Positions 39,090 through 55,273 of a stretch of DNA of 64,000 nucleotides are shown piece by piece. Numbering within the stretch: the first letter of the stretch is position 1; each line of letters opens with the position of its first letter. The position numbers and the translations under genes were made by a program. This stretch comes from Solitalea canadensis DSM 3403. GTDB lineage: Bacteria; Bacteroidota; Bacteroidia; Sphingobacteriales; Sphingobacteriaceae. The notes below the pieces were generated by a model. The model was not told the origin of the DNA, searched no databases, and was given only the letters and a program-made list of their open reading frames with translations. The stretch lies in the NCBI RefSeq assembly GCF_000242635.2, contig NC_017770.1, forward strand, positions 3,608,669 through 3,672,668, read 5' to 3'.

Positions 39090-39560
39090 ATGCAGAATTC
39101 AACACTTTCCATCGGTGTTTTATGGCCATTTATGGCTTATGCAGCTATTGTAGTTGTACTCGTTTCTGTTATTCTTCTGCTTTCTTACTTATTGGGCCAG
39201 CATCATAAAGAGCAGGCTACGGATCAACCCTATGAATCGGGTATTGAAGAAACCGGTTCTGCCCGCTTACGTTTTTCAGTTCAATTTTATTTAGTGGCGA
39301 TGTTATTCGTCATTTTTGATGTAGAAACGATATTTATCGTTTTGTGGGCATTGCACTTTAAGGAATTAGGCTGGGTTGGCTATGCAGGAATAAGTCTATT
39401 CATAGGAGTACTGATAGCCGTATTAATTTATGAGTGGAGTATTGGCGCTCTCGACTTTGGACCAAGTGGAAAGAAAATATTGAAGGCATACAGGAAACAA
39501 CAAAATGCGGCGAAAGAAGCACTGTATCAACAACTTTTCAATCAAAATAATCCAAGATAA
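39090..39560 (+). CDS. nuoA: NADH-quinone oxidoreductase subunit A
   Basis: A 156-residue membrane protein with three transmembrane helices: [18 protein letters not shown], the [20 protein letters not shown] helix with the conserved acidic residues, and a third. [20 protein letters not shown] is the NuoA loop. It is a small membrane-arm subunit of complex I at the junction to the quinone site. AAGGAGG lies 9 bp before the ATG. It is the first gene of the nuo operon. Confidence 0.93.
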
Positions 39561-39616: not shown

Positions 39617-40255
39617 ATGAAGTGGTGGCTAACACATGCTGACGATCCAACCGGAAAAGTTTCGGGTGAAAGTTCTATGATTGAAAGTATGGGACAAAGC
39701 ATAATGCTAACCACTGTTCAGGATCTTGTAGCCTGGGGACGAAAAAACTCCATGTGGCCCTTTCACTTCGGACTCTCATGTTGTTTTGTTGAAATGGCCA
39801 CAAGCATTACCAGTAAATATGATGTGGCAAGATTTGGGGCTGAAGTAATCAGGGGAACCCCGCGGGAAGCGGATGTTATGGTTATTGCCGGAACGGTTTT
39901 CATTAAAATGGCCCCGGTAATAAAACGATTGCATGAACAAATGATGGAACCTCGATGGGTAATTTCAATGGGATCGTGTGCAAATTCAGGAGGAATGTAT
40001 GATATTTACAGTGTGGTTCAGGGTGTCGATAAATTTCTACCTGTCGATGTGTATGTTCCTGGTTGTCCTCCTCGTCCCGATGCATTTATGCAAGGCTTAA
40101 TGCTTTTAAGCAACTCCGTTGGAAAAGAGCAACGTCCATTAAGTTGGGTAATAGGTGAACAAGGGGTCATTAAGCCTGAAAAAATATCAATGAAAGAACT
40201 CAAACGTGAAGAACGCGCTCAAATGGTAAACTTTCGTTCTCCGGATGAAATATAA
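39617..40255 (+). CDS. nuoB: NADH-quinone oxidoreductase subunit B
   Basis: A 212-residue subunit carrying cluster N2 next to the quinone site. The [10 protein letters not shown] cysteine pair, [11 protein letters not shown] and [19 protein letters not shown] supply the cysteines. The C-terminus is extended with a basic [17 protein letters not shown] tail. It follows nuoA at 56 bp; the next two genes are not complex I subunits. Confidence 0.95.
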
Positions 40256-40274: not shown

Positions 40275-40715
40275 ATGCTAAGTATTCAGAAACACTATTT
40301 ACGAAAAAACACCTTATTGAAATTCTGTTCGTTACTGCTTATATTTCTAAGCAGTTGCAGTCCTTTGATTGCGCCCTATAACGAACATATTTACCGTGAA
40401 CTGGTCTCCCTGAAAGTTGAAACCACCACCCTTGTGGGCAAAAGCAATGAAGAATACAGCAAACATGTTACTGAAGTTGAGGATGTAGACAAAGACATGA
40501 ATAAGCTGTATGAATACATGAAAGGACTTCCCAAAAACACCGAGTCAGCAAGCATGCTGAAAAAGATAATTGATGGCGATGGCATGTGGAGCGGGATTAA
40601 AAATCACTGGAAAACTAAAGGACAGTTGCAACCGGAGCTTGCTGGTGAACTCCAAAAAGCTATTGGAGAGGGATTTGATGAACTGATTGAGCTTGAATCA
40701 AAAAAACTAAAATAA
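40275..40715 (+). CDS. Putative lipoprotein encoded inside the nuo operon
   Basis: A 146-residue protein with a long basic N-terminus, a hydrophobic stretch and lipobox (LLLIFLSSCSPLIAPYNEH), so probably lipid-anchored in the envelope. The mature part is helical and polar (YSKHVTEVEDVDKDMNKLYE; KNHWKTKGQLQPELAGELQK). It starts 19 bp after nuoB. I recognise no family. Its place between nuoB and nuoCD is not part of the usual operon, so a complex-I-linked role is possible but unproven. Confidence 0.75.
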   Translation: MLSIQKHYLRKNTLLKFCSLLLIFLSSCSPLIAPYNEHIYRELVSLKVETTTLVGKSNEEYSKHVTEVEDVDKDMNKLYEYMKGLPKNTESASMLKKIIDGDGMWSGIKNHWKTKGQLQPELAGELQKAIGEGFDELIELESKKLK

Positions 40716-40752
40716 TCCATTTAACTAAACAATAACCAACATATAGCTCACT

Positions 40753-41076
40753 ATGGCTGACTTTGAAAAGATATTTGATGAATTAAAAGAAGATGTAATA
40801 AATCTGGCAAAGCTCACTTTTAAAAACTTCAAAGATGATGCAGAGAAAGATATGAATGCATTTCTGGATTCGTCTAAAGAAAAACTACAACGCTGGACCT
40901 TACTATTATCGCAAAATAAAATAGATAAAGACGACTTTGAACTCTTAGCTAAAGGTTTAAAAGATATTGCAGAGTTGAAACTGATTAAACAAAAAGCATT
41001 GGCTAAAATTCGGGTGGACGAATTTAAAAATGCGCTAGTAAATCTTATTACCGATACTGTTTTCAAATTTTTGTAA
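40753..41076 (+). CDS. Small helical protein encoded inside the nuo operon
   Basis: A 107-residue soluble, all-helical protein (MADFEKIFDELKEDVINLAK; KDDFELLAKGLKDIAELKLI) without signal peptide, cysteines or membrane helix. It starts 37 bp after the lipoprotein and 14 bp before nuoCD, so it is surely cotranscribed with nuo. I recognise no family. It could be an assembly factor or an accessory protein partnered with the lipoprotein; that is inference. Confidence 0.75.
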   Translation: MADFEKIFDELKEDVINLAKLTFKNFKDDAEKDMNAFLDSSKEKLQRWTLLLSQNKIDKDDFELLAKGLKDIAELKLIKQKALAKIRVDEFKNALVNLITDTVFKFL

Positions 41077-41090
41077 TGAAGTTATAACCC

Positions 41091-42839
41091 ATGTATGCCC
41101 CCGAAAAGTTGGCACCCGAACTGACGCTGAAATTCGGCGAATCAGTTTTAACACCACAACAGACCGCTGATGATGTTGCCACTTTTTGGGTTCACTCAAC
41201 CAAGGTTATAGAAGTATTAACCTACCTTAAAACAGGCTCTCCTGAACCTTTTCCAATGCTTTATGACTTGTTCGCGATCGACGAGCGCTCAAGAGCAAAC
41301 CGAAATAATTACCCTTCCAAAGACTTTACTATAGTTTATCACCTTCTGTCATTTATACGCAATCAATTCATCCGCCTAAAGATTGCTCTGGACGGCGAAT
41401 ATCCTTCGGCTCCTACTCTTACCCATCTGTGGCCTTCAGCTGCCTGGTATGAGCGTGAAGTATATGATATGTTCGGAATTCGTTTTGACGGCCACCCCCA
41501 TCTGCAACGGATACTTATGCCATTAACCTGGCAGGGCCATCCGCTCCGTAAAGAGCACCCTGCCAGGGCCACAGAAATGGGTCCGTTTAAACTTTGGGAT
41601 GAAAAAGTGGATACTGAACAAGGGGCATTGCGTTTTAAACCTGAAGAATGGGGTTTAAAACGTCATAGTGAGGATGCTGATTTTATGTTTTTGAATATTG
41701 GCCCTCAGCACCCCGGAACTCATGGGGTATTACGCATTATTTTGCAGCTGGACGGAGAAGATATCATCGACGCAGTTCCTGATATTGGCTTTCATCATAG
41801 GGGTGCCGAGAAAATGGGTGAGCGACAATCGTGGCACACTTACATACCTTATACTGACCGTATTGATTATTTAGGCGGTGTAATGAACAATCTTGCGTAC
41901 CTGCTTTCTGTTGAAAAACTGGCAGGCATTGAAGTTCCTGAACGTGTAAAGGTTATACGGGTGATGATGTGCGAATTCTTCCGAATTGCCAGTCATTTAG
42001 TTTGGTATGGAACCTTTGCGCAAGACATTGGCCAACTATCTCCTGTATTCTACATGTTTACTGACAGGGAAAAGATATTTGACATAGTTGAAGCTGTTTG
42101 TGGAGGAAGAATGCATCCGAACTGGTTCAGAATCGGTGGTGTTTCACAAGACTTGCCAAAAGGTTGGGATAAACTAGTTGCCGACTTCATCGCTTATTTC
42201 CCTAAGAGAGTAAAGGAATACCATAACATGGTAATGAAAAACAGCATTTTCAAAGCCAGAACTGTAGGAATAGGCATTTACACATTACAAGAAGCGATTG
42301 AATGGGGAGTTACAGGTCCTGGATTACGGGCTTGTGGCTTTGAATGGGATATGCGCAAAAAACAACCTTACTCAGGTTATGAAAACTTTGACTTCGAAAT
42401 TCCTATCGCCCAAAATGGCGATTGCTATGATCGTGCAGTTGTTCGTGAACTTGAGATGTTGCAAAGTCTAAGAATTATTGAACAATGCTTAAAGCATATG
42501 CCTGAAGGCGCCTTCAAAGCGGATCATCCGCTTACTACACCTCCTCTGAAAAAATATACAATGCAAGACATCGAAACACTTATCAATCATTTCTTAAATG
42601 TTAGTTGGGGACCGGTTATTCCGACTGGAGAAGCGATGAGTTGTATCGAAGCCACAAAAGGAAATAATAGTTATTATATGGTGAGTGATGGAAACACATC
42701 GCCCTACCGCTCAAGAATAAGGACACCTTCTTTTCCGCATATGCAAATGTTGCCCTATATAAGCAAGGGGTACACGGTTGCCGATTTGCTTTCAATTTTA
42801 GGAAGCATGGATTATGTGTTGGCGGATATAGACAGGTGA
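41091..42839 (+). CDS. nuoCD: NADH-quinone oxidoreductase fused subunit C/D
   Basis: A 582-residue fusion. Residues 1 to about 180 form the NuoC part ([40 protein letters not shown]). From about residue 195 the NuoD part follows: [20 protein letters not shown], the quinone-site loop [12 protein letters not shown], and the C-terminal [12 protein letters not shown]. It forms part of the peripheral arm at the quinone site. The C/D fusion occurs in several bacterial groups. Confidence 0.94.
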
Positions 42840-42960: not shown

Positions 42961-43494
42961 ATGGCCTTAGATATTCAAAATAATACAAGTAATGGTTCTC
43001 CTCCTTTGGAGGGGTTGGGAGATACTGAACGTCATGCTATTGATCATGAAATAAGCCTTGTTCCTTACAAAAAGGCGGCTTGCATTGAAGCGATGAAAAT
43101 TGTGCAAAAACAGAGAGGTTGGATTTCTGATGATTCATTAAAAGCTATTGCAGATTATCTTGAAATGTCGACAGCAGAATTAGATAGTGTGGCTACTTTT
43201 TACAATTTGATTTTCAGGAAACCGGTTGGCGAGCACATTATTCTTCTTTGCGATAGCATTACCTGTTGGGTGATGGGTTATCAGTCGCTTTATACTGCTA
43301 TAAGAAATAAACTGGGGATCAGTTTCGGAGAAACCACTTCGAATGGTCAGTTTACATTATTACCCAATGCGTGTTTGGGTTGCTGTGATCACGCCCCAGC
43401 TTTAATGATAGATAATGACTTATACAGAAATACAAAGGTGGAGGAATTGGAGGGGATTCTCGCAAGATATAGCGCACCAAAGCCCTCAGCTTAA
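42961..43494 (+). CDS. nuoE: NADH-quinone oxidoreductase subunit E
   Basis: A 177-residue thioredoxin-like [2Fe-2S] subunit of the NADH module. Helices YKKAACIEAMKIVQKQRGWI and MSTAELDSVATFYNLIFRK precede the cluster ligands in LLCDSITCWVMGY and NACLGCCDHAPALM. The N-terminal 35 residues (GSPPLEGLGD) contain a translated copy of the palindromic repeat found elsewhere in this operon, an insertion not present in ordinary NuoE. Usual length is 155-170. Confidence 0.93.
   Translation: MALDIQNNTSNGSPPLEGLGDTERHAIDHEISLVPYKKAACIEAMKIVQKQRGWISDDSLKAIADYLEMSTAELDSVATFYNLIFRKPVGEHIILLCDSITCWVMGYQSLYTAIRNKLGISFGETTSNGQFTLLPNACLGCCDHAPALMIDNDLYRNTKVEELEGILARYSAPKPSA
42998..43022 (+). repeat. Palindromic repeat copy inside the nuoE coding region
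   Basis: CTCCTCCTTTGGAGGGGTTG core, CCTCC/GGAGG arms. It encodes SPPLEGLG in NuoE. Related in sequence to the copies between 43540 and 48940. Confidence 0.6.
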
Positions 43495-43539
43495 GGAGTG
43501 GGAGTGCTTGACTGGATGAGAAATTAGCACTCTCTTATT

Positions 43540-43555
43540 CCCCTTTTGAGAGGGG
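43540..43555 (+). repeat. Palindromic repeat copy between nuoE and nuoF
   Basis: CCCCT TTTGAG AGGGG arms in the 97-bp nuoE-nuoF spacer; degenerate member of the same family. Confidence 0.5.
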
Positions 43556-43591
43556 TTATACATACGGGATTTTATTAAAATTCAGAAATCA

Positions 43592-44863
43592 ATGGAAAGA
43601 CCGCTTACTAAGAATATAAATCCTAACAGACCTCCTCTAAATCTAAAGGAATATGAGATGACTGGAGGGTATTTGGCTGTTAGAACGGTGATGAAAATGG
43701 AGCCCAAAGAGGTTACTGAATTGGTTAAGGAATCTAATTTAAAAGGCAGAGGAGGCGCGGGTTTCAGCACCGGGATGAAATGGAGTTTTGTACCGATGAA
43801 TGAACATGCACCTCCTGTTAAATATTTGGTTGCTAATGCCGATGAGATGGAGCCCGGCACGTTCAAAGACAGAATGCTTTTAGAGGGGAACCCTCATCAA
43901 TTAATCGAAGGGATGATAATTGCAGCTTATGCCATTCAGGCCTCAACCGCTTATGTATTTCTTCGGTTTGCCTATAAACAAGCTGCCGAATGCATTATTA
44001 AAGCAATTGAAGAAGCTTATGCTGCTAACTATTTGGGTGAGAATATTCAGGGTTCAGGATACTCGCTTCAAATGTATTTGCATACTGGCGTTGGAAGGTA
44101 CATGTGTGGAGAAGAAACAGCTTTATTGAATGCATTGGAAGGAAAAAGGGCAACACCAAGGGCTAAACCTCCTTTTCCTCAAGTGAGTGGTTTATTTGGC
44201 AAACCCACTATTGTAAATAATGTTGAAACGCTTTGTAACCTTCCTCACATCATTAATAATGGGGCCGATTGGTACAAAAGTTTAAGCTATAGTGAAGATG
44301 GCGGAACTAAATTATACGGAGTAAGCGGACATGTTAATAAGCCTGGCTGTTGGGAATTGCCTATGGGTGTTACTATGCGGGAGTTAATTGAAGATTATGC
44401 CGGTGGTATGAAAGCTGGTTATAAATTCAGAGGTGTTTTACCTGGCGGTGCGTCTACTGACTTTTTGGTTGAGCAACATATGGATATTAAAATGGATTTT
44501 CGTTCAGTGGCAACAGCGGGTAGTCGCTTAGGAACAGGAACAATGATCGTTCTTGACGATCGAACTTGCCCTGTTGGTTTTGTCCACAACCTTGAATTAT
44601 TTTTTTCACGCGAATCATGCGGTTGGTGCACACCTTGTCGCGAAGGACTACCTTGGATCGAAAAGATTTTATTATCCATCGAACGAGGAAACGGAAGCAT
44701 AAATGACCTTGAAATACTTGATCAGCACACAAAACTATTGGGTCCGGGAAATACATTTTGCGCCTTAGCTCCCGGTGCTGTAGAACCGCTGCAAAGCGCT
44801 TTGAAATATTTCAGAGAGGATTTTGAACGGCATGTATATGAGAGGAAATGTCCGTACGGATAA
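43592..44863 (+). CDS. nuoF: NADH-quinone oxidoreductase subunit F
   Basis: A 423-residue flavoprotein. The NADH-binding GRGGAGFSTGMKWSFV, the FMN-binding CGEETALLNALEGKR and the 4Fe-4S ligands ESCGWCTPCREG are all present. It oxidises NADH and passes electrons via FMN to the Fe-S chain. Length is normal. The start follows nuoE at 97 bp, across a repeat copy. Confidence 0.95.
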   Translation: MERPLTKNINPNRPPLNLKEYEMTGGYLAVRTVMKMEPKEVTELVKESNLKGRGGAGFSTGMKWSFVPMNEHAPPVKYLVANADEMEPGTFKDRMLLEGNPHQLIEGMIIAAYAIQASTAYVFLRFAYKQAAECIIKAIEEAYAANYLGENIQGSGYSLQMYLHTGVGRYMCGEETALLNALEGKRATPRAKPPFPQVSGLFGKPTIVNNVETLCNLPHIINNGADWYKSLSYSEDGGTKLYGVSGHVNKPGCWELPMGVTMRELIEDYAGGMKAGYKFRGVLPGGASTDFLVEQHMDIKMDFRSVATAGSRLGTGTMIVLDDRTCPVGFVHNLELFFSRESCGWCTPCREGLPWIEKILLSIERGNGSINDLEILDQHTKLLGPGNTFCALAPGAVEPLQSALKYFREDFERHVYERKCPYG

Positions 44864-45182
44864 GACCTCATCCCCGGCCCTTCTCCTTAAGAAGAAGGGA
44901 GCGCTCGGAGTGACTGGGAGCGTGCTCGGAGTGTCTTAATGGATATTAGAAAGTATAATAGATGATGATTAAATGGAATAATTAACAATAAGCACTGGCT
45001 CAAAAGTCCCTCTCCTTCAGGAGGAGGATTTAGGGTGAGGTAAAATGAAGGGAGCGCTCGGAGTGACGGGATGGATTTATTAGATAATGTAAAAGGATAC
45101 TGATAATTAAATGGAATAATTAACAATTAGCAATGGCCCAAAAGTCCCTCTCCTTCAGGAGAGGGATTTAGGGTGAGGTAAA
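44864..45182 (+). repeat. Tandemly duplicated, palindrome-bearing spacer before nuoG
   Basis: No gene. A unit of about 140-155 bp occurs twice in a row. The best conserved part is 80 bp, at 44968-45047 and at 45106-45185, the second ending in the nuoG ATG. Both units start with AAGGGAGCGCTCGGAGTGA and carry a palindrome (45007-45028; 45145-45166, with perfect 9-bp arms TCCCTCTCC/GGAGAGGGA). A third palindrome is at 44878-44900. The last one lies 16 bp before the nuoG start and could affect its translation. Confidence 0.8.
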
Positions 45183-47867
45183 ATGGCAACGCTCTACATT
45201 GATAATCGACCGTATGAAGTAAAAGAAGGTAAAAACCTTCTGGAGATCTGTTTGTCTTTAGGGATTGATCTTCCTTATTTCTGCTGGCATCCCGCAATGG
45301 GATCAGTTGGGGCTTGCCGTCAGTGTGCTATAAGGGTTTTTAAGGATGAAAATGATAGCAATGGCCGTTTAGCAATGGCCTGCATGGAGCCGGTTAATAA
45401 TGAACTAAGAATTTCTGTTGATCATCCTACTGCCAAAGCATTCAGAAAACAACTCATCGAATGGTTGATGACCAATCACCCTCATGACTGTGCGGTCTGC
45501 GATGAAGGTGGTTCTTGTCATTTGCAGGACATGACGGTAATGACTGGACATAATTATCGCCGCTTCGAATTTCCTAAACGAACCTATACCAATCAATATT
45601 TAGGACCACTGATTAATCATGAAATGAACCGTTGCATTCAATGTTATCGTTGTGTTCGTTTCTATAAGGATTATGCGGGAGGTAATGATTTGGATGTTTT
45701 TGCAGCGCATAATCATGTTTATTTTGGAAGAGCCGAAGATGGCGTGTTGCAAAGTGAATTTAGTGGCAATCTTGCCGAAGTTTGTCCAACGGGTGTGTTT
45801 ACTGACAAAACACTTAAGCAGCATTATACCCGAAAATGGGATTTTACTTTTGCGCCTTCCATTTGCCAACATTGCAGTTTAGGCTGTAATATTATTGCCG
45901 GAGAGCGATATGGAGAACTCCGTCAGATCACTTCGCGCTATAACAGCGAGGTAAATGGGTATTTTATGTGCGACCGTGGACGATTTGGTTATGAGGCTGC
46001 TAATAGTGATCAACGTATTCAACAAGCCGCTATAAAGACTCATCATTATCCTATCGATAAAAAAATACTCTTAGATCATATTTCAGAATTGCTTATCAAA
46101 CATCAATTCATTGGAATCGGATCACCAAGGGCTTCTCTGGAATCCAATTATGCACTGATGAAACTGGTTGGAAAAGAGCACTTTTTCAACGGCATTTCAG
46201 AAACTGAGCATCAACTCAACACTACTGCTTTAGCACTTTTACAAAGTGGAGTAGCACATATTCCTTCATTAAAAGAGATCGAAGAATACGATGTGGTCTT
46301 GATTTTAGGTGAGGATATAATCAATTCAGCGCCAATGGCTGCATTATCAGTACGGCAAGCCATCCGTCAGGTTCCGATCGACACAGCACATAATGCGATC
46401 AATTTACCAGTATGGCATGATGCTGCATTAAGAGAATACATCCAAAATAAGCATAGCGCTCTTTTTATTGCCCATCCTTATGAAACTAAATTAGATGATA
46501 TAGCAACGAAAACTCATTACCTAACACCAACAGAAATTGCTGCATTAGGATATGCGATTACCCAGCACATCAATAATGGTTCTCTTTCTGAACATTCATT
46601 TAACGAGGAGGCCTCGCTTATTGCCTCCGAACTCTTAAAGGCAGAACGCCCTTTAATTATTGCAGGAACCAGCCTAATGAATGAACCTACTCTGAAAGCA
46701 GCCGGAAACATTGCAATGGCGCTTACCAAGAATGGAAAAACGGCTGGGTTGTTTCTGATTATGCAAGAATGTAATTCACTTGGGCTAACAATGATGCAAT
46801 CCACATCTCTTAATGAGGCTTTAGCTAAAACTAATGAAGAAGACTTTGCCGTTATCATTCTTGAGAATGATATCTATCGCCGTGTACCTGCTGAGCATAT
46901 TGATTTGTTTTTAACGAAATGCTCAGAGGTAATAACCATTGATCATCAATATACCAAATTAGCCGAAAGTTCGACTGTTATCATTCCTTCCGGATTCTTT
47001 TCAGAAGCAGACGGAACGATCATAAATAATGAAGGAAGGGCTCAACGCTACTTCCAGGTGTTTACACCTGAAAATCCGATGATACGAGAAAGTTGGCGTT
47101 GGTTAACTGATATGTATTCGTTAAAAAACGGTATCGCCATCAATGATGCACTTTCTCTCAACGATCTGCAGCGTGAGTTAATTGAAAGTTTACCGCAATT
47201 CAAAGGTGTTGAAAAAACAGCTCCTGAAGATAGTTTTAGGGTAAATGGACAAAAAATTCCACGTGAACCACATCGCTATAGCGGCCGCACTGCAATGCAG
47301 GCCAATAAAAATGTGAGCGAACCTAAGCCTCCTGAAGATCTGGACTCTTCGCTTTCATTTACGATGGAAGGTTATCAGGGCATTCCACCATCTTCATTAA
47401 CACCATTTTTCTGGTCGCCCGGATGGAATTCTGTTCAATCGATCAACAAATTTCAGATCGAGATTGGAGGTCCCTTGCATGACGGAGATCCCGGAGTACG
47501 GCTAATTGAACCCTCAATTAATACTTCGTCGTCATTCATTACCACTTCACCAGAAGAAGAGAAAAAGTCCAACGATTGGACGGTTGTTCCAATCCACCAC
47601 ATTTTCGGCTCGGAAGAGTTGAGCAATTTATCAGCACCAATAGCGGAACTAAGTCCGGCACCTTATGTGGCCCTGAATGAAACAGACCTTAAAGAACTTG
47701 GATTAAATACTACAGACAGACTGATTATCACGCTAAATAACAATGATTTCGAATTGCCGATTCAACTAAAATATGGATTGCCACCTAAAACAGTTGGCAT
47801 CCCATATGGCTTAAAGGATTTTGCTATTAATCCTTTCCCTATCAATTGTATAGTTAGAAAAAAATGA
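45183..47867 (+). CDS. nuoG: NADH-quinone oxidoreductase subunit G
   Basis: An 894-residue Fe-S subunit. The [2Fe-2S] ligands are in YFCWHPAMGSVGACRQC and MACMEP; His-ligated 4Fe-4S in HPHDCAVCDEGGSCHLQD; another in NRCIQCYRCVRF with VCPTG; and a further one in CQHCSLGCNI with MCDRG, the extra N7-type cluster site. The C-terminal part is a degenerate molybdopterin-oxidoreductase domain. nuoH overlaps its stop by 4 bp (ATGA). Confidence 0.94.
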   Translation: MATLYIDNRPYEVKEGKNLLEICLSLGIDLPYFCWHPAMGSVGACRQCAIRVFKDENDSNGRLAMACMEPVNNELRISVDHPTAKAFRKQLIEWLMTNHPHDCAVCDEGGSCHLQDMTVMTGHNYRRFEFPKRTYTNQYLGPLINHEMNRCIQCYRCVRFYKDYAGGNDLDVFAAHNHVYFGRAEDGVLQSEFSGNLAEVCPTGVFTDKTLKQHYTRKWDFTFAPSICQHCSLGCNIIAGERYGELRQITSRYNSEVNGYFMCDRGRFGYEAANSDQRIQQAAIKTHHYPIDKKILLDHISELLIKHQFIGIGSPRASLESNYALMKLVGKEHFFNGISETEHQLNTTALALLQSGVAHIPSLKEIEEYDVVLILGEDIINSAPMAALSVRQAIRQVPIDTAHNAINLPVWHDAALREYIQNKHSALFIAHPYETKLDDIATKTHYLTPTEIAALGYAITQHINNGSLSEHSFNEEASLIASELLKAERPLIIAGTSLMNEPTLKAAGNIAMALTKNGKTAGLFLIMQECNSLGLTMMQSTSLNEALAKTNEEDFAVIILENDIYRRVPAEHIDLFLTKCSEVITIDHQYTKLAESSTVIIPSGFFSEADGTIINNEGRAQRYFQVFTPENPMIRESWRWLTDMYSLKNGIAINDALSLNDLQRELIESLPQFKGVEKTAPEDSFRVNGQKIPREPHRYSGRTAMQANKNVSEPKPPEDLDSSLSFTMEGYQGIPPSSLTPFFWSPGWNSVQSINKFQIEIGGPLHDGDPGVRLIEPSINTSSSFITTSPEEEKKSNDWTVVPIHHIFGSEELSNLSAPIAELSPAPYVALNETDLKELGLNTTDRLIITLNNNDFELPIQLKYGLPPKTVGIPYGLKDFAINPFPINCIVRKK

Positions 47868-48835
47868 ACGAGACACTAACCTACTGGCTTATTATTGTCG
47901 GCGTACTTTTTAGTTTGCTTACGCTTGCCGCTTTATTAATATGGGTAGAGCGACGTATGCTTGCATTGTGGCAAGATCGTTTGGGGCCAAACCGCGCCGG
48001 GCCTTTGGGTTTATTTATTGTGGTTGCTGATTCACTAAAATTATTTTTCAAAGAAGACTGGATCCCTCCATTTGCAGACAAGCCTGTTTTTATCCTGGCT
48101 CCGGCGGTGGTAGTTATCAGTGTGCTGTTAAGTTTCAGCATCATTCCCTTTGCTCCAAATATTCAAATTGCAGATCTAAATATTGGTTTGTTGTTTTTTC
48201 TTGGAATGTCGTCTTTGGGTGTTTATAGCATTGTTTTAGGAGGCTGGGCTTCCAACAACAAATATTCATTATTGGGTGCTTTACGGGGAGCTTCACAAAT
48301 GATTTCTTATGAAGTTTTCATGGGCTTATCCCTAATGGGGGTTGTGATGCTAACGGGTTCGTTTAGTTTGCAAGCCATAGTAGAGGCACAAAAAGATTAT
48401 TGGTTTATTCTTTTGCAGCCTGTCGGTTTTGTCATCTTTTTTATTGCCGGAATTGCAGAAACACACCGATTGCCATTTGATATACCAGAGGCTGAAAGCG
48501 AGTTGGTTGCAGGATTTCACTCTGAATACTCAGGCATGAAATTCGGTATGTTCTTTATTGGAGAGTATTTGGGAGTCACCTTAATATCGGCCATGACAGT
48601 AACCTTATTTTTCGGCGGGTGGCTGGGGCCTTCATTCCTTCCGCCTTTGGTTTGGTTCGTTTTAAAAACGTTTGGGTTTATCTTATTCTTCGTGTTGCTA
48701 AGAGCTTCATTACCACGACCACGATACGATCAGCTAATGGAATTCGGATGGAAAACGCTTTTACCAATTACATTATTGAATTTATTGATTACTGGGGCTG
48801 TGGCTTTATACCTCACCCCTAGCCCCTCTCCTTAA
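47864..48835 (+). CDS. nuoH: NADH-quinone oxidoreductase subunit H
   Basis: A 323-residue membrane subunit with about eight transmembrane helices. Family signatures are LWQDRLGPNRAGPLGL near the N-terminus and RLPFDIPEAESELVAGFHSE, the quinone-chamber loop. It links the quinone site to proton channels. The last residues (LTPSPSP) and the TAA stop come from an inserted palindromic repeat, so the natural C-terminus has been altered. It overlaps nuoG by 4 bp. Confidence 0.94.
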   Translation: MNETLTYWLIIVGVLFSLLTLAALLIWVERRMLALWQDRLGPNRAGPLGLFIVVADSLKLFFKEDWIPPFADKPVFILAPAVVVISVLLSFSIIPFAPNIQIADLNIGLLFFLGMSSLGVYSIVLGGWASNNKYSLLGALRGASQMISYEVFMGLSLMGVVMLTGSFSLQAIVEAQKDYWFILLQPVGFVIFFIAGIAETHRLPFDIPEAESELVAGFHSEYSGMKFGMFFIGEYLGVTLISAMTVTLFFGGWLGPSFLPPLVWFVLKTFGFILFFVLLRASLPRPRYDQLMEFGWKTLLPITLLNLLITGAVALYLTPSPSP

Positions 48836-48844
48836 GGAGAGGGG
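48823..48844 (+). repeat. Perfect palindromic repeat at the nuoH stop codon
   Basis: Arms CCCCTCTCC and GGAGAGGGG around TTAA, perfect over 22 bases; the TAA in its centre is the nuoH stop codon. Confidence 0.8.
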
Positions 48845-48918
48845 GACACAGACAGTGCAGTACAATAGCGTACTCAAATTATGTAAAATAGAATCATTTT
48901 TTAAGTACTGTCTTCTCA

Positions 48919-48940
48919 CCCTTCTCCTTTAGGAGAAGGG
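48919..48940 (+). repeat. Palindromic repeat before nuoI
   Basis: Arms CCCTTCTCC and GGAGAAGGG around TTTA, in the nuoH-nuoI spacer; same family as the copy at 48823. Confidence 0.75.
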
Positions 48941-48968
48941 TAATAAGCATTAATTAACAAGAGGTAAC

Positions 48969-49484
48969 ATGCTAAGTATTATTCGAAGTATATGGCTAAC
49001 CTTTTTGCATTTGTTCAGGAAAACGGAAACAATTGAATACCCTGAGCAAAAGGCTCCATTATATCCGCGGTGGAGGGGCCGCATTGTACTTACACGAGAT
49101 CCAGATGGTGGTGAACGTTGTGTCGGGTGTTACTTATGTGCAGCGGCCTGCCCTGTTGATTGTATTGCCTTGCAGGCAACTGAGAATGACGAGGGCCGTC
49201 GTTATCCGGAGTTCTTCAGAATAAACTTTTCGAGGTGTATTTTCTGTGGATATTGTGAAGAAGCTTGTCCGACTTACGCCATTCAGCTTATTCCCGATTT
49301 TGAAATGGCGGAATATTCACGTCAGAATTTGGTTTACGAGAAAGAGGATCTATTGATAAACAGTGAGGGCAAATATCCTGGTTATAATTATTACAAAGTG
49401 GCAGGGTTAGATGCGGGTGTAAAAGGGAAAGGAGAAGGTGACAATGAGGAACCTCCGATTGATATCCGGAGTTTATTACCATAA
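48969..49484 (+). CDS. nuoI: NADH-quinone oxidoreductase subunit I
   Basis: A 171-residue ferredoxin-like subunit with two 4Fe-4S motifs: [18 protein letters not shown] and [18 protein letters not shown], and the family's N-terminal amphipathic helix and [14 protein letters not shown]. It carries electrons towards NuoB. The C-terminal stretch [20 protein letters not shown] is variable. Confidence 0.95.
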
Positions 49485-49489
49485 TATAT

Positions 49490-49555
49490 TAAACCGTAAA
49501 GTCGCGATGAAGCAAAGAAGAATAAACTTAGCAACTCTGTGCCTTGGCGGTAAAA
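49490..49555 (+). repeat. Imperfect palindromic sequence of a second repeat type before nuoJ
   Basis: AAACCGTAAAGTCGCGATGA on the left and CTGTGCCTTGGCGGTAAAAA on the right form an imperfect inverted repeat resembling the widespread bacterial repeats with the ACCGCAAAG...CTTTGCGGT theme. It is different from the CCCTCTCC-type family. Confidence 0.45.
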
Positions 49556-49566
49556 AACGACACACC

Positions 49567-50085
49567 ATGGCTATACTATTTTACATAGCATCATTAGTCG
49601 CCATTCTGGCAACATTACTGGTAATCACCAGGAAGCACCCGGTTCATGCACTGCTCTATCTTGTGGTGTCATTTCTGTCCGTATCTATAATTTTCTACCA
49701 ACTTGGAGCTCCATTTATTGCTGTGTTAGAAATCATTGTTTATGCAGGTGCAATTGTAGTATTCTTCATTTTTGTGGTGATGATGCTGAATTTAGGAATT
49801 GAAACAAAAATGAAAGAAAGCGAATGGCTCCGCCCTCAAACATGGTTCGGACCAACAGTTTTATCAGGAATACTTCTAATTGAATTGATTTACATGGTTG
49901 GTATTGCTAAAAATGAAGTGTTAGCAATTACCGAAATCGGTCCAACGCAGGTTGCTGCATCATTGTTTGGACCTTACTTAATAGGAGTGGAATTGGCTGC
50001 AATGCTTTTAATGGCGGGTGTTGTTGGAGCAGCCCATATTGGTCAGCATAAACGAAAACATTGGCATCGATTTTTAAAGGAATAA
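49567..50085 (+). CDS. nuoJ: NADH-quinone oxidoreductase subunit J
   Basis: A 172-residue membrane subunit with five helices, including HALLYLVVSFLSVSIIFYQL and the IVYAGAIVVFFIFVVMMLNL helix that carries the pi-bulge. The ATG at 49567 is chosen over an in-frame ATG at 49438 because the upstream stretch reads through the repeat. nuoK starts 2 bp after its stop. Confidence 0.93.
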   Translation: MAILFYIASLVAILATLLVITRKHPVHALLYLVVSFLSVSIIFYQLGAPFIAVLEIIVYAGAIVVFFIFVVMMLNLGIETKMKESEWLRPQTWFGPTVLSGILLIELIYMVGIAKNEVLAITEIGPTQVAASLFGPYLIGVELAAMLLMAGVVGAAHIGQHKRKHWHRFLKE

Positions 50086-50087
50086 TT

Positions 50088-50426
50088 ATGATAAGTACTG
50101 TTGAAATCAATCATGTTTTGCTTCTTGCTGCTATCTTGTTTGGGCTGGGGGCCATCGGTGTTGTGATAAGACGGAACGTATTATTCATGCTTATTTCTGT
50201 AGAAGTTATGCTCAATGCTGCAGGACTAGCATTTATCACAGCTGGAGCCAAATGGGTACAAGCAGATGGACAGGTAATGTTCCTTTTCATCCTAACAATG
50301 GCAGCAGCGGAAGTTTCGATCGGACTTGCACTCATCATGCAAATCTATCATCAACATAAAACCTTAGATATAGATGAACTCGCCAACTTGAAAACAAAAG
50401 TATTTGACAATGAGAAAATCACATAG
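50088..50426 (+). CDS. nuoK: NADH-quinone oxidoreductase subunit K
   Basis: A 112-residue protein with three helices. HVLLLAAILFGLGAIGVVIR and SVEVMLNAAGLAFITAG with the conserved Glu of E-channel helices identify it. The ATG at 50088 follows AAAGGAATAATT; the frame is open further upstream into nuoJ but the first helix sets the start. Confidence 0.94.
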   Translation: MISTVEINHVLLLAAILFGLGAIGVVIRRNVLFMLISVEVMLNAAGLAFITAGAKWVQADGQVMFLFILTMAAAEVSIGLALIMQIYHQHKTLDIDELANLKTKVFDNEKIT

Positions 50427-50470
50427 CATAAACGACGGATTAAAGTCCATGGATTACTAAACAACATAAT

Positions 50471-52351
50471 ATGCAACTCGCCCTCCTACCGGCATTTCCG
50501 TTTTTAGGTTTTCTGCTGCTGGCTTTTTTTGGCAGAAGATTACCCCAATCAGCCATTGCATTCATCGGAACAGGAAGCGTTAGCATTTCTGCATTATTAG
50601 GCATCTACATTGCTGTCCATTACATCACTAGCCCTCCATCCTCAGGATACGTGATCCAAACATTATGGGAATGGATACAGGTCGGAAACTTTTCCAGCGG
50701 CATTACCTTTTATTATGATGCCCTTTCATTGGTATTTGTCTTTGTAATCACCTTTGTTGGAGCGCTGATCCATCTTTATTCGACTGAATTTATGGAACAC
50801 GATAAAAGCTATGCTCGTTTTTTTGCCTATATGAACTTATTCGTTTGCTCCATGCTCCTTTTGGTTTTAGCAGATAACCTGGTTTTACTTTATTTAGGAT
50901 GGGAAGGTGTTGGTTTATGCAGTTATCTTTTAATTGGTTTTTGGTATGAAGAAACCCAAAATGGACAGGCAGCACAAAAGGCTTTTATTATAACACGTAT
51001 TGGAGATACTGCTCTTGCCTTGGGTTTATTTCTTCTATTCTATCAGTATGGCAGTTTACAAATCCTATCTATTAATAACGTTATTCAACATCAACCAACT
51101 CATGATAGTTCATTAACTACCCTGGCCGCCTTATTGTTATTAGGAGGAGCTGTAGGAAAATCGGCTCAACTGCCGCTGCAAACATGGCTTCCCGATGCTA
51201 TGGCGGGTCCTTCACCTGTTAGTGCGTTGATCCATGCTGCCACAATGGTTACAGCAGGAGTTTATTTAATAACACGAATGCATTTTGTTTTTGAATTATC
51301 GCCTACCGCAATGACCACAGTTGCAGTTGTAGGGGCTTTAACCTTACTTATTGCTGGTACCTCTGCATTAGCTCAATATGATATAAAACGAGTCTTAGCT
51401 TACTCAACAGTGAGCCAATTGGGTTACATGTTTTTGGCCTTGGGGGTAGGCGCCTGGACTGCTGCTATATTCCACTTCATGATTCATGCTTTTTTTAAAG
51501 CGTTGTTATTTCTGGCTGCCGGAACCGTTATTGAAGCACAACACCACGAACATAATATGTTTAAAATGGGAGGGTTGAAAGATAAACTACCTGTTGTTTA
51601 TAAAACCTTCATTATTGGAGCCGCCGCCTTAGCTGCATTACCTTTAATAAGTGCCGGTTTTTACAGTAAAGATGCCATTTTATGGTATTCAATCAGCTCT
51701 CAAAATGGCTCAATCCTGCTTTGGCTTGCAGCAATAGTCGGTTCGTTTATTACGGCCTTGTATTCTACCCGTATGGTTGTACTAACGTTTTTCGGTGAAT
51801 CAAAAACCGAAGTCAGTTACCTGCCAAAGTGGAAAATGATCATTCCGCTTATTATTTTGGCATTTCTTTCAATTGTTGGCGGATTTATTGAACTACCACA
51901 CAACTTCGGTCATGTTACCTTATTTTCTGATCTTTTATCGAACATGCTACCCTCCGTGCAACTATCTGAAGGGTTTTCTGAACTAACCTTCCAGCTCCTG
52001 GCAGCAGTTATTTGTTTGCTTGGAATATTTTTGGGATGGAAGCTATATACTAACAACCAACTGCTTCATAATAAGCTAAAAGACAGTACTTTTTTTGAAT
52101 CCATTCATAATTTTCTCTTAAGTGGATGGAAGTTTGATGTGCTCTATAATGCCTTATTTCAACAGCCTTATCGTCTTTTAGCAAAAGCCAATAAAAATGA
52201 TATTGTAGATCAACTCAATACAATAATTGTTGACTTCTGTAATTGGCTATATCAAATGCTTTCATTTACTCAGTCGGGATCACTTCGATGGTATGTGATG
52301 GGAATTATTGCCGGAACAATCATGATTTTAACCTTACAGCTATTACTATGA
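50471..52351 (+). CDS. nuoL: NADH-quinone oxidoreductase subunit L
   Basis: A 626-residue antiporter-like proton-channel subunit with about 16 helices. GWEGVGLCSYLLIGFWY, LPDAMAGPSPVSALIHAATM and the C-terminal lateral helix region are present. Its stop overlaps the nuoM ATG (ATGA). Confidence 0.95.
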   Translation: MQLALLPAFPFLGFLLLAFFGRRLPQSAIAFIGTGSVSISALLGIYIAVHYITSPPSSGYVIQTLWEWIQVGNFSSGITFYYDALSLVFVFVITFVGALIHLYSTEFMEHDKSYARFFAYMNLFVCSMLLLVLADNLVLLYLGWEGVGLCSYLLIGFWYEETQNGQAAQKAFIITRIGDTALALGLFLLFYQYGSLQILSINNVIQHQPTHDSSLTTLAALLLLGGAVGKSAQLPLQTWLPDAMAGPSPVSALIHAATMVTAGVYLITRMHFVFELSPTAMTTVAVVGALTLLIAGTSALAQYDIKRVLAYSTVSQLGYMFLALGVGAWTAAIFHFMIHAFFKALLFLAAGTVIEAQHHEHNMFKMGGLKDKLPVVYKTFIIGAAALAALPLISAGFYSKDAILWYSISSQNGSILLWLAAIVGSFITALYSTRMVVLTFFGESKTEVSYLPKWKMIIPLIILAFLSIVGGFIELPHNFGHVTLFSDLLSNMLPSVQLSEGFSELTFQLLAAVICLLGIFLGWKLYTNNQLLHNKLKDSTFFESIHNFLLSGWKFDVLYNALFQQPYRLLAKANKNDIVDQLNTIIVDFCNWLYQMLSFTQSGSLRWYVMGIIAGTIMILTLQLLL

Positions 52352-53865
52352 TACTGCTATGGCTCATTGTTACATTACTTTCAGGAGGGCTACTTGCATG
52401 GATTGCTGGATATTTTATACCTGCTTTGCCTAAGTGGATCGCCCTGATAAGCTGTTTTATATGCTTTGTTATTTGTCATAATATATGGCATGAGCAAAGT
52501 GTGGCCATTTCAACTGTAGCCAATAGTCAATGGATCATTGAATATAAAACTCCCTGGATTCGCCAATGGAATATCACTTTTCACCTCGGACTCGATGGAC
52601 TCAGCTTAACTATGCTGTTGCTGACTTTTTTTATTGGAACGGTTGCCATACTGTGTTCGTGGACAGAGATCAACTTAAAAACCAATTTCTTCTACTTTAA
52701 TTTATTATGGGTTCTTGCTGGAATAACGGGCGTTTTTGTTGCGCTAGACCTATTCCTTTTTTACTTTTTCTGGGAAGTAATGCTTATTCCGATGTATTTT
52801 CTCATTGGCATTTGGGGAAGTGAAAAGAGGATCTACGCGTCATATAAGTTTTTCATTTTTACTCAGGCAAGCGGGCTGTTAATGCTGGCAAGCATTATTA
52901 CGATTTATTTTACAAGTAATTCAACTTCTTATGATTACGAACAATTAATTGGCATTGAAATCAGAACTCCTTATTCACTTTTAATCATGCTTGGGTTCTT
53001 AATTGCATTTGTTGTTAAGCTGCCCTTATTCCCATTTCATACTTGGTTACCGGATGCACACTCGGAAGCTCCAACCGGAGGAAGTGTGATTTTAGCCGGA
53101 CTAATGTTAAAAACGGGGGCTTATGGGCTGCTACGATTTATATTACCGCTCTTCCCTCAAACCATGCATCAAATTTCGGAGTGGGCCATTATTTTAGGGG
53201 TGATTTCCATTTTGTATGGGGCCTTACAAGCCTTCGGGCAAACCGATTTGAAAAGACTTGTTGCCTATACAAGTGTAAGCCATATGGGTTTTATCATTTT
53301 AGGCCTATTTGCATTTAATGAATTAGCCATTCAGGGAATTATCCTCCAAATGATTGCTCATGGAATAAGCGCTGCCGCATTATTCATTCTTGCCGGGATG
53401 CTTAAGGAACGTTTGCATACACGAAATATTAATGAAATGAGCGGACTTTGGAGTTCAGCTCCACAAATGGGATCAGTGGCATTGTTATTTGCGATGGCAG
53501 CCTGCGGGCTACCTGCTTTAGGTAATTTCATTGCTGAATTTTTGATTTTACTTGGCTCATTTGAAAAACATCCGGTTGCAACTGCATTAGCCAGTGTTGG
53601 TCTCATCTTGTCTGCCATCTATTCCGTCAGAATGATGCAGAAAGTATTCTTCGGACCCACGCACACTCCGGCTCCTTCAACGTACGATCTTTCTATGCGA
53701 GAAAAACTGATTATGGGTTTATTAACTGTAGCGATAGTAGTTTTGGGCTTATTCCCTCAACCGGTAATTGACCTGCTCAAACCTTTAGCTCAACGCTTAT
53801 CTATAACCACAATTCAACATCCTGATACGAATGATCTAACCGATTCCCAAGATGCCAATAATTGA
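52348..53865 (+). CDS. nuoM: NADH-quinone oxidoreductase subunit M
   Basis: A 505-residue antiporter-like subunit. HLGLDGLSLTMLLLTFF, FFWEVMLIPMYFLIGIWGSE with the conserved Glu, and FHTWLPDAHSEAPTGGSVIL identify it. The start ATG at 52348 overlaps the end of nuoL; an earlier in-frame ATG would lie deep inside nuoL. It overlaps nuoN by 14 bp. Confidence 0.95.
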   Translation: MILLWLIVTLLSGGLLAWIAGYFIPALPKWIALISCFICFVICHNIWHEQSVAISTVANSQWIIEYKTPWIRQWNITFHLGLDGLSLTMLLLTFFIGTVAILCSWTEINLKTNFFYFNLLWVLAGITGVFVALDLFLFYFFWEVMLIPMYFLIGIWGSEKRIYASYKFFIFTQASGLLMLASIITIYFTSNSTSYDYEQLIGIEIRTPYSLLIMLGFLIAFVVKLPLFPFHTWLPDAHSEAPTGGSVILAGLMLKTGAYGLLRFILPLFPQTMHQISEWAIILGVISILYGALQAFGQTDLKRLVAYTSVSHMGFIILGLFAFNELAIQGIILQMIAHGISAAALFILAGMLKERLHTRNINEMSGLWSSAPQMGSVALLFAMAACGLPALGNFIAEFLILLGSFEKHPVATALASVGLILSAIYSVRMMQKVFFGPTHTPAPSTYDLSMREKLIMGLLTVAIVVLGLFPQPVIDLLKPLAQRLSITTIQHPDTNDLTDSQDANN

Positions 53866-55273
53866 TCTATATAATTGGATGCCATTGCTAACTACTGCCG
53901 CAGGATCAGTACTGCTGATGTTGCTTATTGCCATAAAATTATCACATAGAGTTATTGAAATCATTTGCTTGATTATTTACCTGCATGCAATTGTTGCCTT
54001 ATCGGAGTCGCATTACATGCTAAATAACCTGTTTATTTTTGATGGTTTTCAGGCTCTTTTTCAAGCTATACTATTATTTTCCGGCTTAGCGGTAACCTTG
54101 CTTTCTTACACTTACTTTAATGAAAAGGAAGAAAACCCCAAAGAATATTATGTGCTATTATTGCTTAGTACTTTAGGAGCACAAGTACTTTGTATTAGTC
54201 ATCATTTTATTAGCCTATTTCTGGGACTCGAAACCTTAACCATTGGTCTGTATGCACTTATTGCCTATTTACGAACTCGTAATAATGCAGTAGAAGCAGG
54301 AATCAAGTATTTAATCCTTGCTGCATTTTCTTCAGCATTTTTATTGCTGGGAATGGCTTTTATTTATTTCGAAGCCGGCACTATGGAATTCAGCAAAATC
54401 GCTGAAGTAGCTAAAGACAATCCTTCATCTGTTATCCTGATAACAGGAGTAGGTTTATTAGTAGTAGGCGCTGGTTTTAAACTTTCCTTGGCGCCTTTTC
54501 ACTTATGGGCTGCCGATGTATATGATGGTTCCCCTACTCCGGTAACAGCATTTATTGCAACCGTTTCAAAAGGTGGAATGCTGATTATTTTATTCCGCTT
54601 TTTGGCCATCACCGGGTTGTATCAATATGAACCCACATTTACTATTCTAACAGTATTAGCTTTAATTTCGATGCTAACAGGAAGTTTCCTGGCATTAAAG
54701 CAGCGAAACCTGAAGCGTATCATGGCGTTCTCTTCGATTGCTAATATGGGCTATTTACTGGTGACAATACTTGCGGTTAAAAACGGTGGAATTCAAGCTG
54801 CTACCTTTTATACACTTATTTATTTTATTGCACTATTAGTGATTTTTGGAACCATCTGTACTTTATCAACTAAAACTCGTGATGCCGATTCGATAGATGA
54901 TGTTAAAGGGCTCTTTTGGTACCGGCCCGTTCTGGCAATGCTATTAACCGTTGCCTTACTTTCATTAGCAGGGATTCCCTTAACAGCAGGCTTTATTGGA
55001 AAATTCTACATACTGCGTACAGGTATAGAAGGGAAACAATGGGTACTAATATTCACCTTAATCTTCACCAGCATTGTAAGTCTGTTTTATTACCTGAGGA
55101 TCATTGTATCAATGTTTTCGGCAGGTGATAAAGTTATTACTGAAGCTTATCAGCTTCATCCCGGATATTATTACATCAATGGGCTTCTTTTAACAGTTTT
55201 AACTGCGGGACTCATCATAATCGGTGTGTACCCTCAACAGATAATTGCCTTTTTACAGACACTCATTCACTGA
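53852..55273 (+). CDS. nuoN: NADH-quinone oxidoreductase subunit N
   Basis: A 473-residue antiporter-like subunit, last gene of the operon. SLFLGLETLTIGLYALIAYL, LAPFHLWAADVYDGSPTPVT and RIMAFSSIANMGYLLV match the family. Overlap with nuoM implies translational coupling. No obvious terminator follows in the 81-bp gap to the next gene. Confidence 0.95.
   Translation: MPIIDLYNWMPLLTTAAGSVLLMLLIAIKLSHRVIEIICLIIYLHAIVALSESHYMLNNLFIFDGFQALFQAILLFSGLAVTLLSYTYFNEKEENPKEYYVLLLLSTLGAQVLCISHHFISLFLGLETLTIGLYALIAYLRTRNNAVEAGIKYLILAAFSSAFLLLGMAFIYFEAGTMEFSKIAEVAKDNPSSVILITGVGLLVVGAGFKLSLAPFHLWAADVYDGSPTPVTAFIATVSKGGMLIILFRFLAITGLYQYEPTFTILTVLALISMLTGSFLALKQRNLKRIMAFSSIANMGYLLVTILAVKNGGIQAATFYTLIYFIALLVIFGTICTLSTKTRDADSIDDVKGLFWYRPVLAMLLTVALLSLAGIPLTAGFIGKFYILRTGIEGKQWVLIFTLIFTSIVSLFYYLRIIVSMFSAGDKVITEAYQLHPGYYYINGLLLTVLTAGLIIIGVYPQQIIAFLQTLIH

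Follow-up and report, generated by a model that had tools for sequence, protein, structure and literature searches.

The 64,000-nucleotide stretch of the Solitalea canadensis DSM 3403 genome analysed here (the window) carries a complex I operon in which two small genes, the first encoding a lipoprotein and the second a helical protein, separate nuoB from nuoCD (Table 1). The sequence-only reading had singled out these genes as an interruption of an otherwise standard operon, and this is borne out by the open reading frames and their gaps: 19 bp between nuoB and the lipoprotein gene, 37 bp between the two genes of the pair and 14 bp between the helical-protein gene and nuoCD. By Pfam, the genes flanking the pair are genuine complex I subunits, and the remainder of the operon, in which NuoC and NuoD are fused, is complete up to nuoN. 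Scans for promoters and terminators near the window copy gave results at chance level only. With three NuoB and three NuoD matches (G000:C1, positions 1620243, 2088533, 3648285, 3650692, 4372759 and 4374622), the S. canadensis genome has several complex I-type loci, of which this operon is one. The NuoB of the window operon is only 46–54% identical to the other two, and the pair is present as a single copy, the other complex I loci of the genome lacking it.

Table 1 The gene pair and the surrounding complex I operon of S. canadensis (positions within the window)
Feature	Position	Strand	Characteristics
nuoA, operon start	39090..39560	+	PF00507
nuoB, upstream neighbour of the pair	39617..40255	+	PF01058
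Lipoprotein gene of the pair	40275..40715	+	146 aa; signal peptide and lipobox
Helical-protein gene of the pair	40753..41076	+	107 aa; soluble, all-helical (predicted)
Fused nuoCD, downstream neighbour of the pair	41091..42839	+	PF00329 and PF00346
nuoE to nuoN, remainder of the operon	42961..55273	+	Assigned by Pfam; no other insert of similar size

The lipoprotein has a signal peptide followed by a lipobox (L-S-S-C, residues 25–28), with the cysteine at residue 28. Residues +2 to +5 (S-P-L-I) hold no acidic export motif and, under general sorting rules, the protein is therefore likely to reside in the outer membrane (OM), facing the periplasm. The helical protein has neither a signal peptide nor a transmembrane helix; its C-terminal helix is moderately hydrophobic, and the best 18-residue hydropathy is about 0.5–1.9. 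AlphaFold2 models made from 40–41 relatives predict a lipid-anchored four-helix bundle for the lipoprotein (mean pLDDT 90) and a small, soluble, all-helical bundle for its partner (mean pLDDT 89). Neither protein matches a Pfam, NCBIfam or PHROGs family, neither has a relative among PDB sequences, and Foldseek searches against the PDB and viral models gave no match with E < 0.001. The earlier impression that the two proteins resemble no known complex I subunit or assembly factor thus holds for Pfam, NCBIfam and the PDB. Structural comparison with VIA-align returned Z scores of up to 11.9 (rmsd 4.6, 137 aligned) for NarQ-type four-helix sensor modules and of 10.1 (rmsd 2.3, 95 aligned) for part of phenylalanine ammonia-lyase, but such scores are within the range usual for helical bundles, and we claim no function from the folds. 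The helical protein also gave weak sequence matches (E about 1e-4 to 1e-3) to MnmE and to the tape-measure protein of a phage; these lie in long, unrelated ORFs and were set aside as chance similarity of coiled coils.

The two genes form a real unit. A scan of 301 genomes from the family found the two genes in one and the same set of 11 genomes; a twelfth, G297, has a divergent lipoprotein, and its partner was found by reading the locus. Across the phylum the helical gene occurs in 41 of 395 genomes, and an HMM-matched lipoprotein gene lies directly upstream of it in 40 of these; at the remaining locus (L114) the same place is taken by a lipoprotein gene of similar size that the HMM does not match. 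All 42 loci from GTDB genomes, for which an alignment of distant members served as query, likewise carry both genes; with the lipoprotein from the window as the only query, named genomes gave no match. Over the 92 loci tallied, the genes are adjacent, in constant order and mostly less than 30 bp apart (at L099 an over-extended ORF masks the order). This adjacency, together with the constant order and the joint presence or absence, strongly supports the suggestion of the sequence-only reading that the two genes share a function, and their products may well interact physically. About one in ten of the sampled Bacteroidota genomes contain the pair, and beyond this phylum it occurs in Desulfacinum and other Deltaproteobacteria, Chitiniphilus, a Cocleimonas MAG and a Chlorobium MAG. 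Two IMG/VR proviral contigs carry it, and searches of phage and plasmid collections found no close relative. We are confident that the pair is an autonomous, portable two-gene module.

Cell-wall hydrolases and phospholipases recur in the neighbourhoods of the other copies. In prophage-like loci of Flavobacterium, an M15 endolysin gene is followed by the genes for the lipoprotein and the helical protein, and then by tail-type genes and a holin gene, where the label "tail-type" comes from the gene arrangement, Pfam having matched none of the three that were tested. In Mucilaginibacter (G223) the neighbours of the pair are a GH46 enzyme together with eCIS core, AAA and tape-measure genes; in Pedobacter it adjoins a GH25 lysozyme and lies not far from RebB genes. 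A CHAP hydrolase adjoins it in Hufsiella and an N-acetylmuramidase in G297, patatin phospholipases and Amidase_2 lie next to it in further loci, and one copy is found in a defence island, amid SIR2 and HerA-like genes (HerA assigned by eye). Among 73 same-strand neighbours, from a set that was lightly curated by dropping doubtful ORFs and near-identical loci, there are 19 such enzymes (eight patatin, seven M15, three GH25 and one muramidase), to which CHAP and Amidase_2 add two further hydrolases, compared with one patatin among 92 matched control genes taken four to eight genes away in the same loci; the counts are phylogenetically non-independent, several of the Flavobacterium loci descending from one ancestor, and they describe an enrichment without a formal test. 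No such hydrolase family has two members among the control genes, for which the 25 commonest families were listed, so that single matches may have gone unseen. The hydrolases tested beside the pair have no N-terminal signal peptide, as is usual for endolysins and for effectors that are injected.

Other copies lie in quite different surroundings. In Flavihumibacter the pair is located between a GCS2 ligase and an amidohydrolase, and in one deep-branching family of the phylum it precedes dnaX-ybaB-recR (L101–L104, L107, L110, L111), mostly with a divergent umuC/dinB-type polymerase gene next to it. Many copies, including that in the window, have no adjoining hydrolase or phage gene, and a link to lysis-type genes is therefore not universal. 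Separately, a conserved, unannotated membrane protein of about 260 aa with the motif SNILRDE is encoded at or near the pair in Sphingobacteriaceae-type loci (L124–L126, L131, L134, L019, L116), often together with a bestrophin-like protein (PF14023).

What could such a pair do? It might be a functional counterpart of the spanins and perform the OM step of lysis or particle release on behalf of prophages, tailocin-like particles, eCIS and R-bodies. The products of prophages, eCIS and RebB-type loci leave by lysis of the producing cell, and the signal-less endolysins, holin, tail-type genes and eCIS and RebB clusters that adjoin the pair would all fit this role, as would a lipoprotein of predicted OM type. 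In some loci the layout resembles two-component spanins of the Rz/Rz1 type, with a lipoprotein gene and a second small gene beside an endolysin and holin; a lipobox is present in the lipoprotein, the OM location of which is a prediction, and the endolysin/holin cassette is found in the Flavobacterium loci but not at the window locus. An i-spanin, however, is defined as a type II inner-membrane protein with an N-terminal transmembrane domain (PMC6139136), whereas the partner of the lipoprotein has neither such a domain nor a signal peptide. Since this inner-membrane anchor is missing, the pair is by definition no spanin, although it could work like one. Also unlike Rz/Rz1, the two genes are not, as a rule, embedded out of frame, neither protein has a PHROG sequence match, and the lipoprotein is modelled as a folded helical bundle of about 120 aa, in contrast to the small o-spanins. 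The resemblance to T10SS-like lysis cassettes is similarly partial: some loci do combine a cytosolic wall hydrolase, a membrane protein and a lipoprotein near eCIS or R-body genes, but most copies miss at least one part, and the nuo operon in the window has no holin, endolysin or spanin, holin and endolysin being parts that exist at other loci. With the long retention of the pair in dnaX-recR, GCS2 and nuo operons that contain no hydrolase at all, we regard a lysis accessory as a possible but somewhat unlikely reading.

A different role would be protection, with the pair guarding its producer against periplasm-acting hydrolases and phospholipases, whether its own, injected or phage-borne, and with orphan copies providing general immunity or phage exclusion. 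The enzymes next to the pair (wall hydrolases, patatin, lipase) belong to classical periplasm-acting effector types, the copy amid SIR2 and HerA-like genes would suit a defensive function, and orphan copies in housekeeping operons would be in keeping with constitutive protection. A lipoprotein adjoining wall hydrolase or patatin genes is also reminiscent of periplasmic effector–immunity pairs. Immunity proteins are usually specific, however, and here a single lipoprotein family accompanies many enzyme families that are unrelated to one another, while the helical second protein is always present and an effector is often absent; in the window, no hydrolase or lipase gene lies beside the pair, while such genes are present at other loci. 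As an explanation for the pair, protection is rather unlikely, and the evidence does not separate it from a lysis accessory. For copies that have no hydrolase or particle partner, protection of the envelope would be the simplest proposal.

The location of the window copy raises the question of whether the pair is tied to complex I, and the sequence-only reading had tentatively proposed an envelope-linked role in the assembly or regulation of that enzyme. Placement within nuo is confined to the four genomes of this genus. In the sister genera G009 and G023, the nearest with an orthologous nuo operon (recognised by a shared upstream CBS gene and 78–82% NuoB identity), the site is empty and nuoB is directly followed by nuoCD (L165, L166). 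None of the other nuo loci that were read contains the pair, about 90 other copies of the pair sit elsewhere than nuo, and none of the other loci fetched around it has nuoA, nuoB, nuoCD or nuoF. A NuoD-type protein is encoded in 47 of 50 pair-bearing genomes, which is uninformative given that such proteins are common anyway. A tree built from the two proteins joined together places the nuo-linked copies in a single, fully supported clade that is not nested among other Sphingobacteriaceae copies. The deeper branches are modestly supported; the topology favours the view that the pair was acquired once, by an ancestor of the genus. The proposed part in complex I assembly or regulation finds no support: in every other lineage sampled the pair is found apart from nuo, and the orthologous operons of both sister genera lack it. 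These findings agree in part with those that the sequence-only reading had itself named as damaging; on the other side stand the constancy of the nuo position within the genus and a position upstream of nqrA in two MAGs.

There is a single hint of a respiratory link outside the genus. In two of three Prevotellaceae MAGs with the pair, it is located 55–59 bp upstream of nqrA (L128:6022-8203 and L135:3633-5816), which at L128 is followed by nqrB and nqrC; in the third MAG the contig stops before the point where nqrA would be expected. A related Bacteroidales copy (L132) lies beside the same upstream gene as the Prevotellaceae copies, with no nqr. The pair might then be dedicated to NADH:quinone oxidoreductases, as a factor for their assembly, stability or regulation, serving nuo in the genus and nqr in some Prevotellaceae. 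Such a factor would be in line with the constant nuo position and short gaps in all four genomes of the genus and with the independent site at nqrA, the nqr-linked and nuo-linked copies being on separate branches of the tree. It is at odds with the orthologous operons of the sister genera, with the other complex I loci of S. canadensis, which have to do without the single pair copy of that genome, with the locus that shares the upstream gene and has no nqr, and with the contexts in all other lineages, which are unrelated to respiration; moreover, we estimate that two of some 20–25 distinct contexts is near what chance placement would give. We treat the position upstream of nqrA as a coincidence deserving a check, and consider a link to NADH:quinone oxidoreductases improbable. 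With complex I accessory and assembly factors the pair shares its location inside a nuo operon, but not homology, and it is nuo-linked in one genus only. That it is a complex I subunit or assembly factor is not supported.

Within the genus, both genes are intact at the same nuo position in four of four genomes, with identities of 55–63% and 58–69% for the two genes. Pairwise non-synonymous distances are 0.07–0.32 for the lipoprotein and 0.07–0.26 for the helical protein, with synonymous sites saturated in both cases; both genes are under purifying selection, and their products change about three times faster than NuoB. Given the conserved place in four genomes and this selection, they are real genes rather than chance ORFs. 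The promiscuous genomic placement of the pair might suggest a passive hitch-hiker or a degenerate remnant that is functionless in the genus, but this is very hard to reconcile with two genes that are intact in every genome, retain their conserved residues and, at saturating divergence, have far fewer non-synonymous than synonymous changes.

As an undescribed and widely spread module, the pair has a portable identity that is well established and a molecular mechanism that we infer. To a mechanism at the envelope we attach middling confidence. In the wider family, the module would act there with endolysin-type enzymes, namely cell-wall hydrolases and phospholipases lacking a signal peptide, and often with a small membrane protein, in a layout like that of a cassette for lysis and release, of phage or T10SS-like type. 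The lipoprotein would work from the periplasmic face of the OM, with the helical protein as its obligate partner on the cytoplasmic side; the absence of a transmembrane segment from the latter makes its cooperation with a periplasmic lipoprotein hard to explain and counts against this model, as does the absence of close relatives from phage and plasmid records. Where there is no hydrolase, as in nuo, the pair may stabilise or protect the envelope of its own cell, and the steady nuo transcript could supply its expression from the nuo promoter. The best overall explanation, for which the case seems to us reasonably balanced, is that a portable envelope module entered the operon between nuoB and nuoCD in an ancestor of the genus and has since been kept by selection, without being a part of complex I. 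More tentatively, the pair could be a two-protein envelope device common to prophages, eCIS and R-body loci, hydrolase and phospholipase operons and a defence island, which has repeatedly been domesticated into housekeeping operons (nuo here; nqr, dnaX-recR and GCS2 elsewhere).

From the S. canadensis genome alone, this widespread pair, which has no Pfam, NCBIfam or PHROG family, would have been misread as a complex I factor, and it calls for caution in inferring function from an operon placement known in a single genus. Its contexts build a case, concrete and open to testing, for a new module of phages and contractile weapons that serves envelope lysis or protection. They also illustrate how components of this kind come to lie within core respiratory operons.

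Some minor observations concern S. canadensis itself. A RebB search of its genome gave no match, and the same search matched no control either. A match to the eCIS tape-measure family PF19268, split into two adjoining pieces at G000:C1:2528345-2529589, is about 1.1 Mb from the window and not adjacent to the pair. Within the nuo operon, an 85-bp repeat (two copies, 93% identity; window positions 44888-45185) fills an unusually long gap between nuoF and nuoG, its second copy terminating at the start of nuoG.
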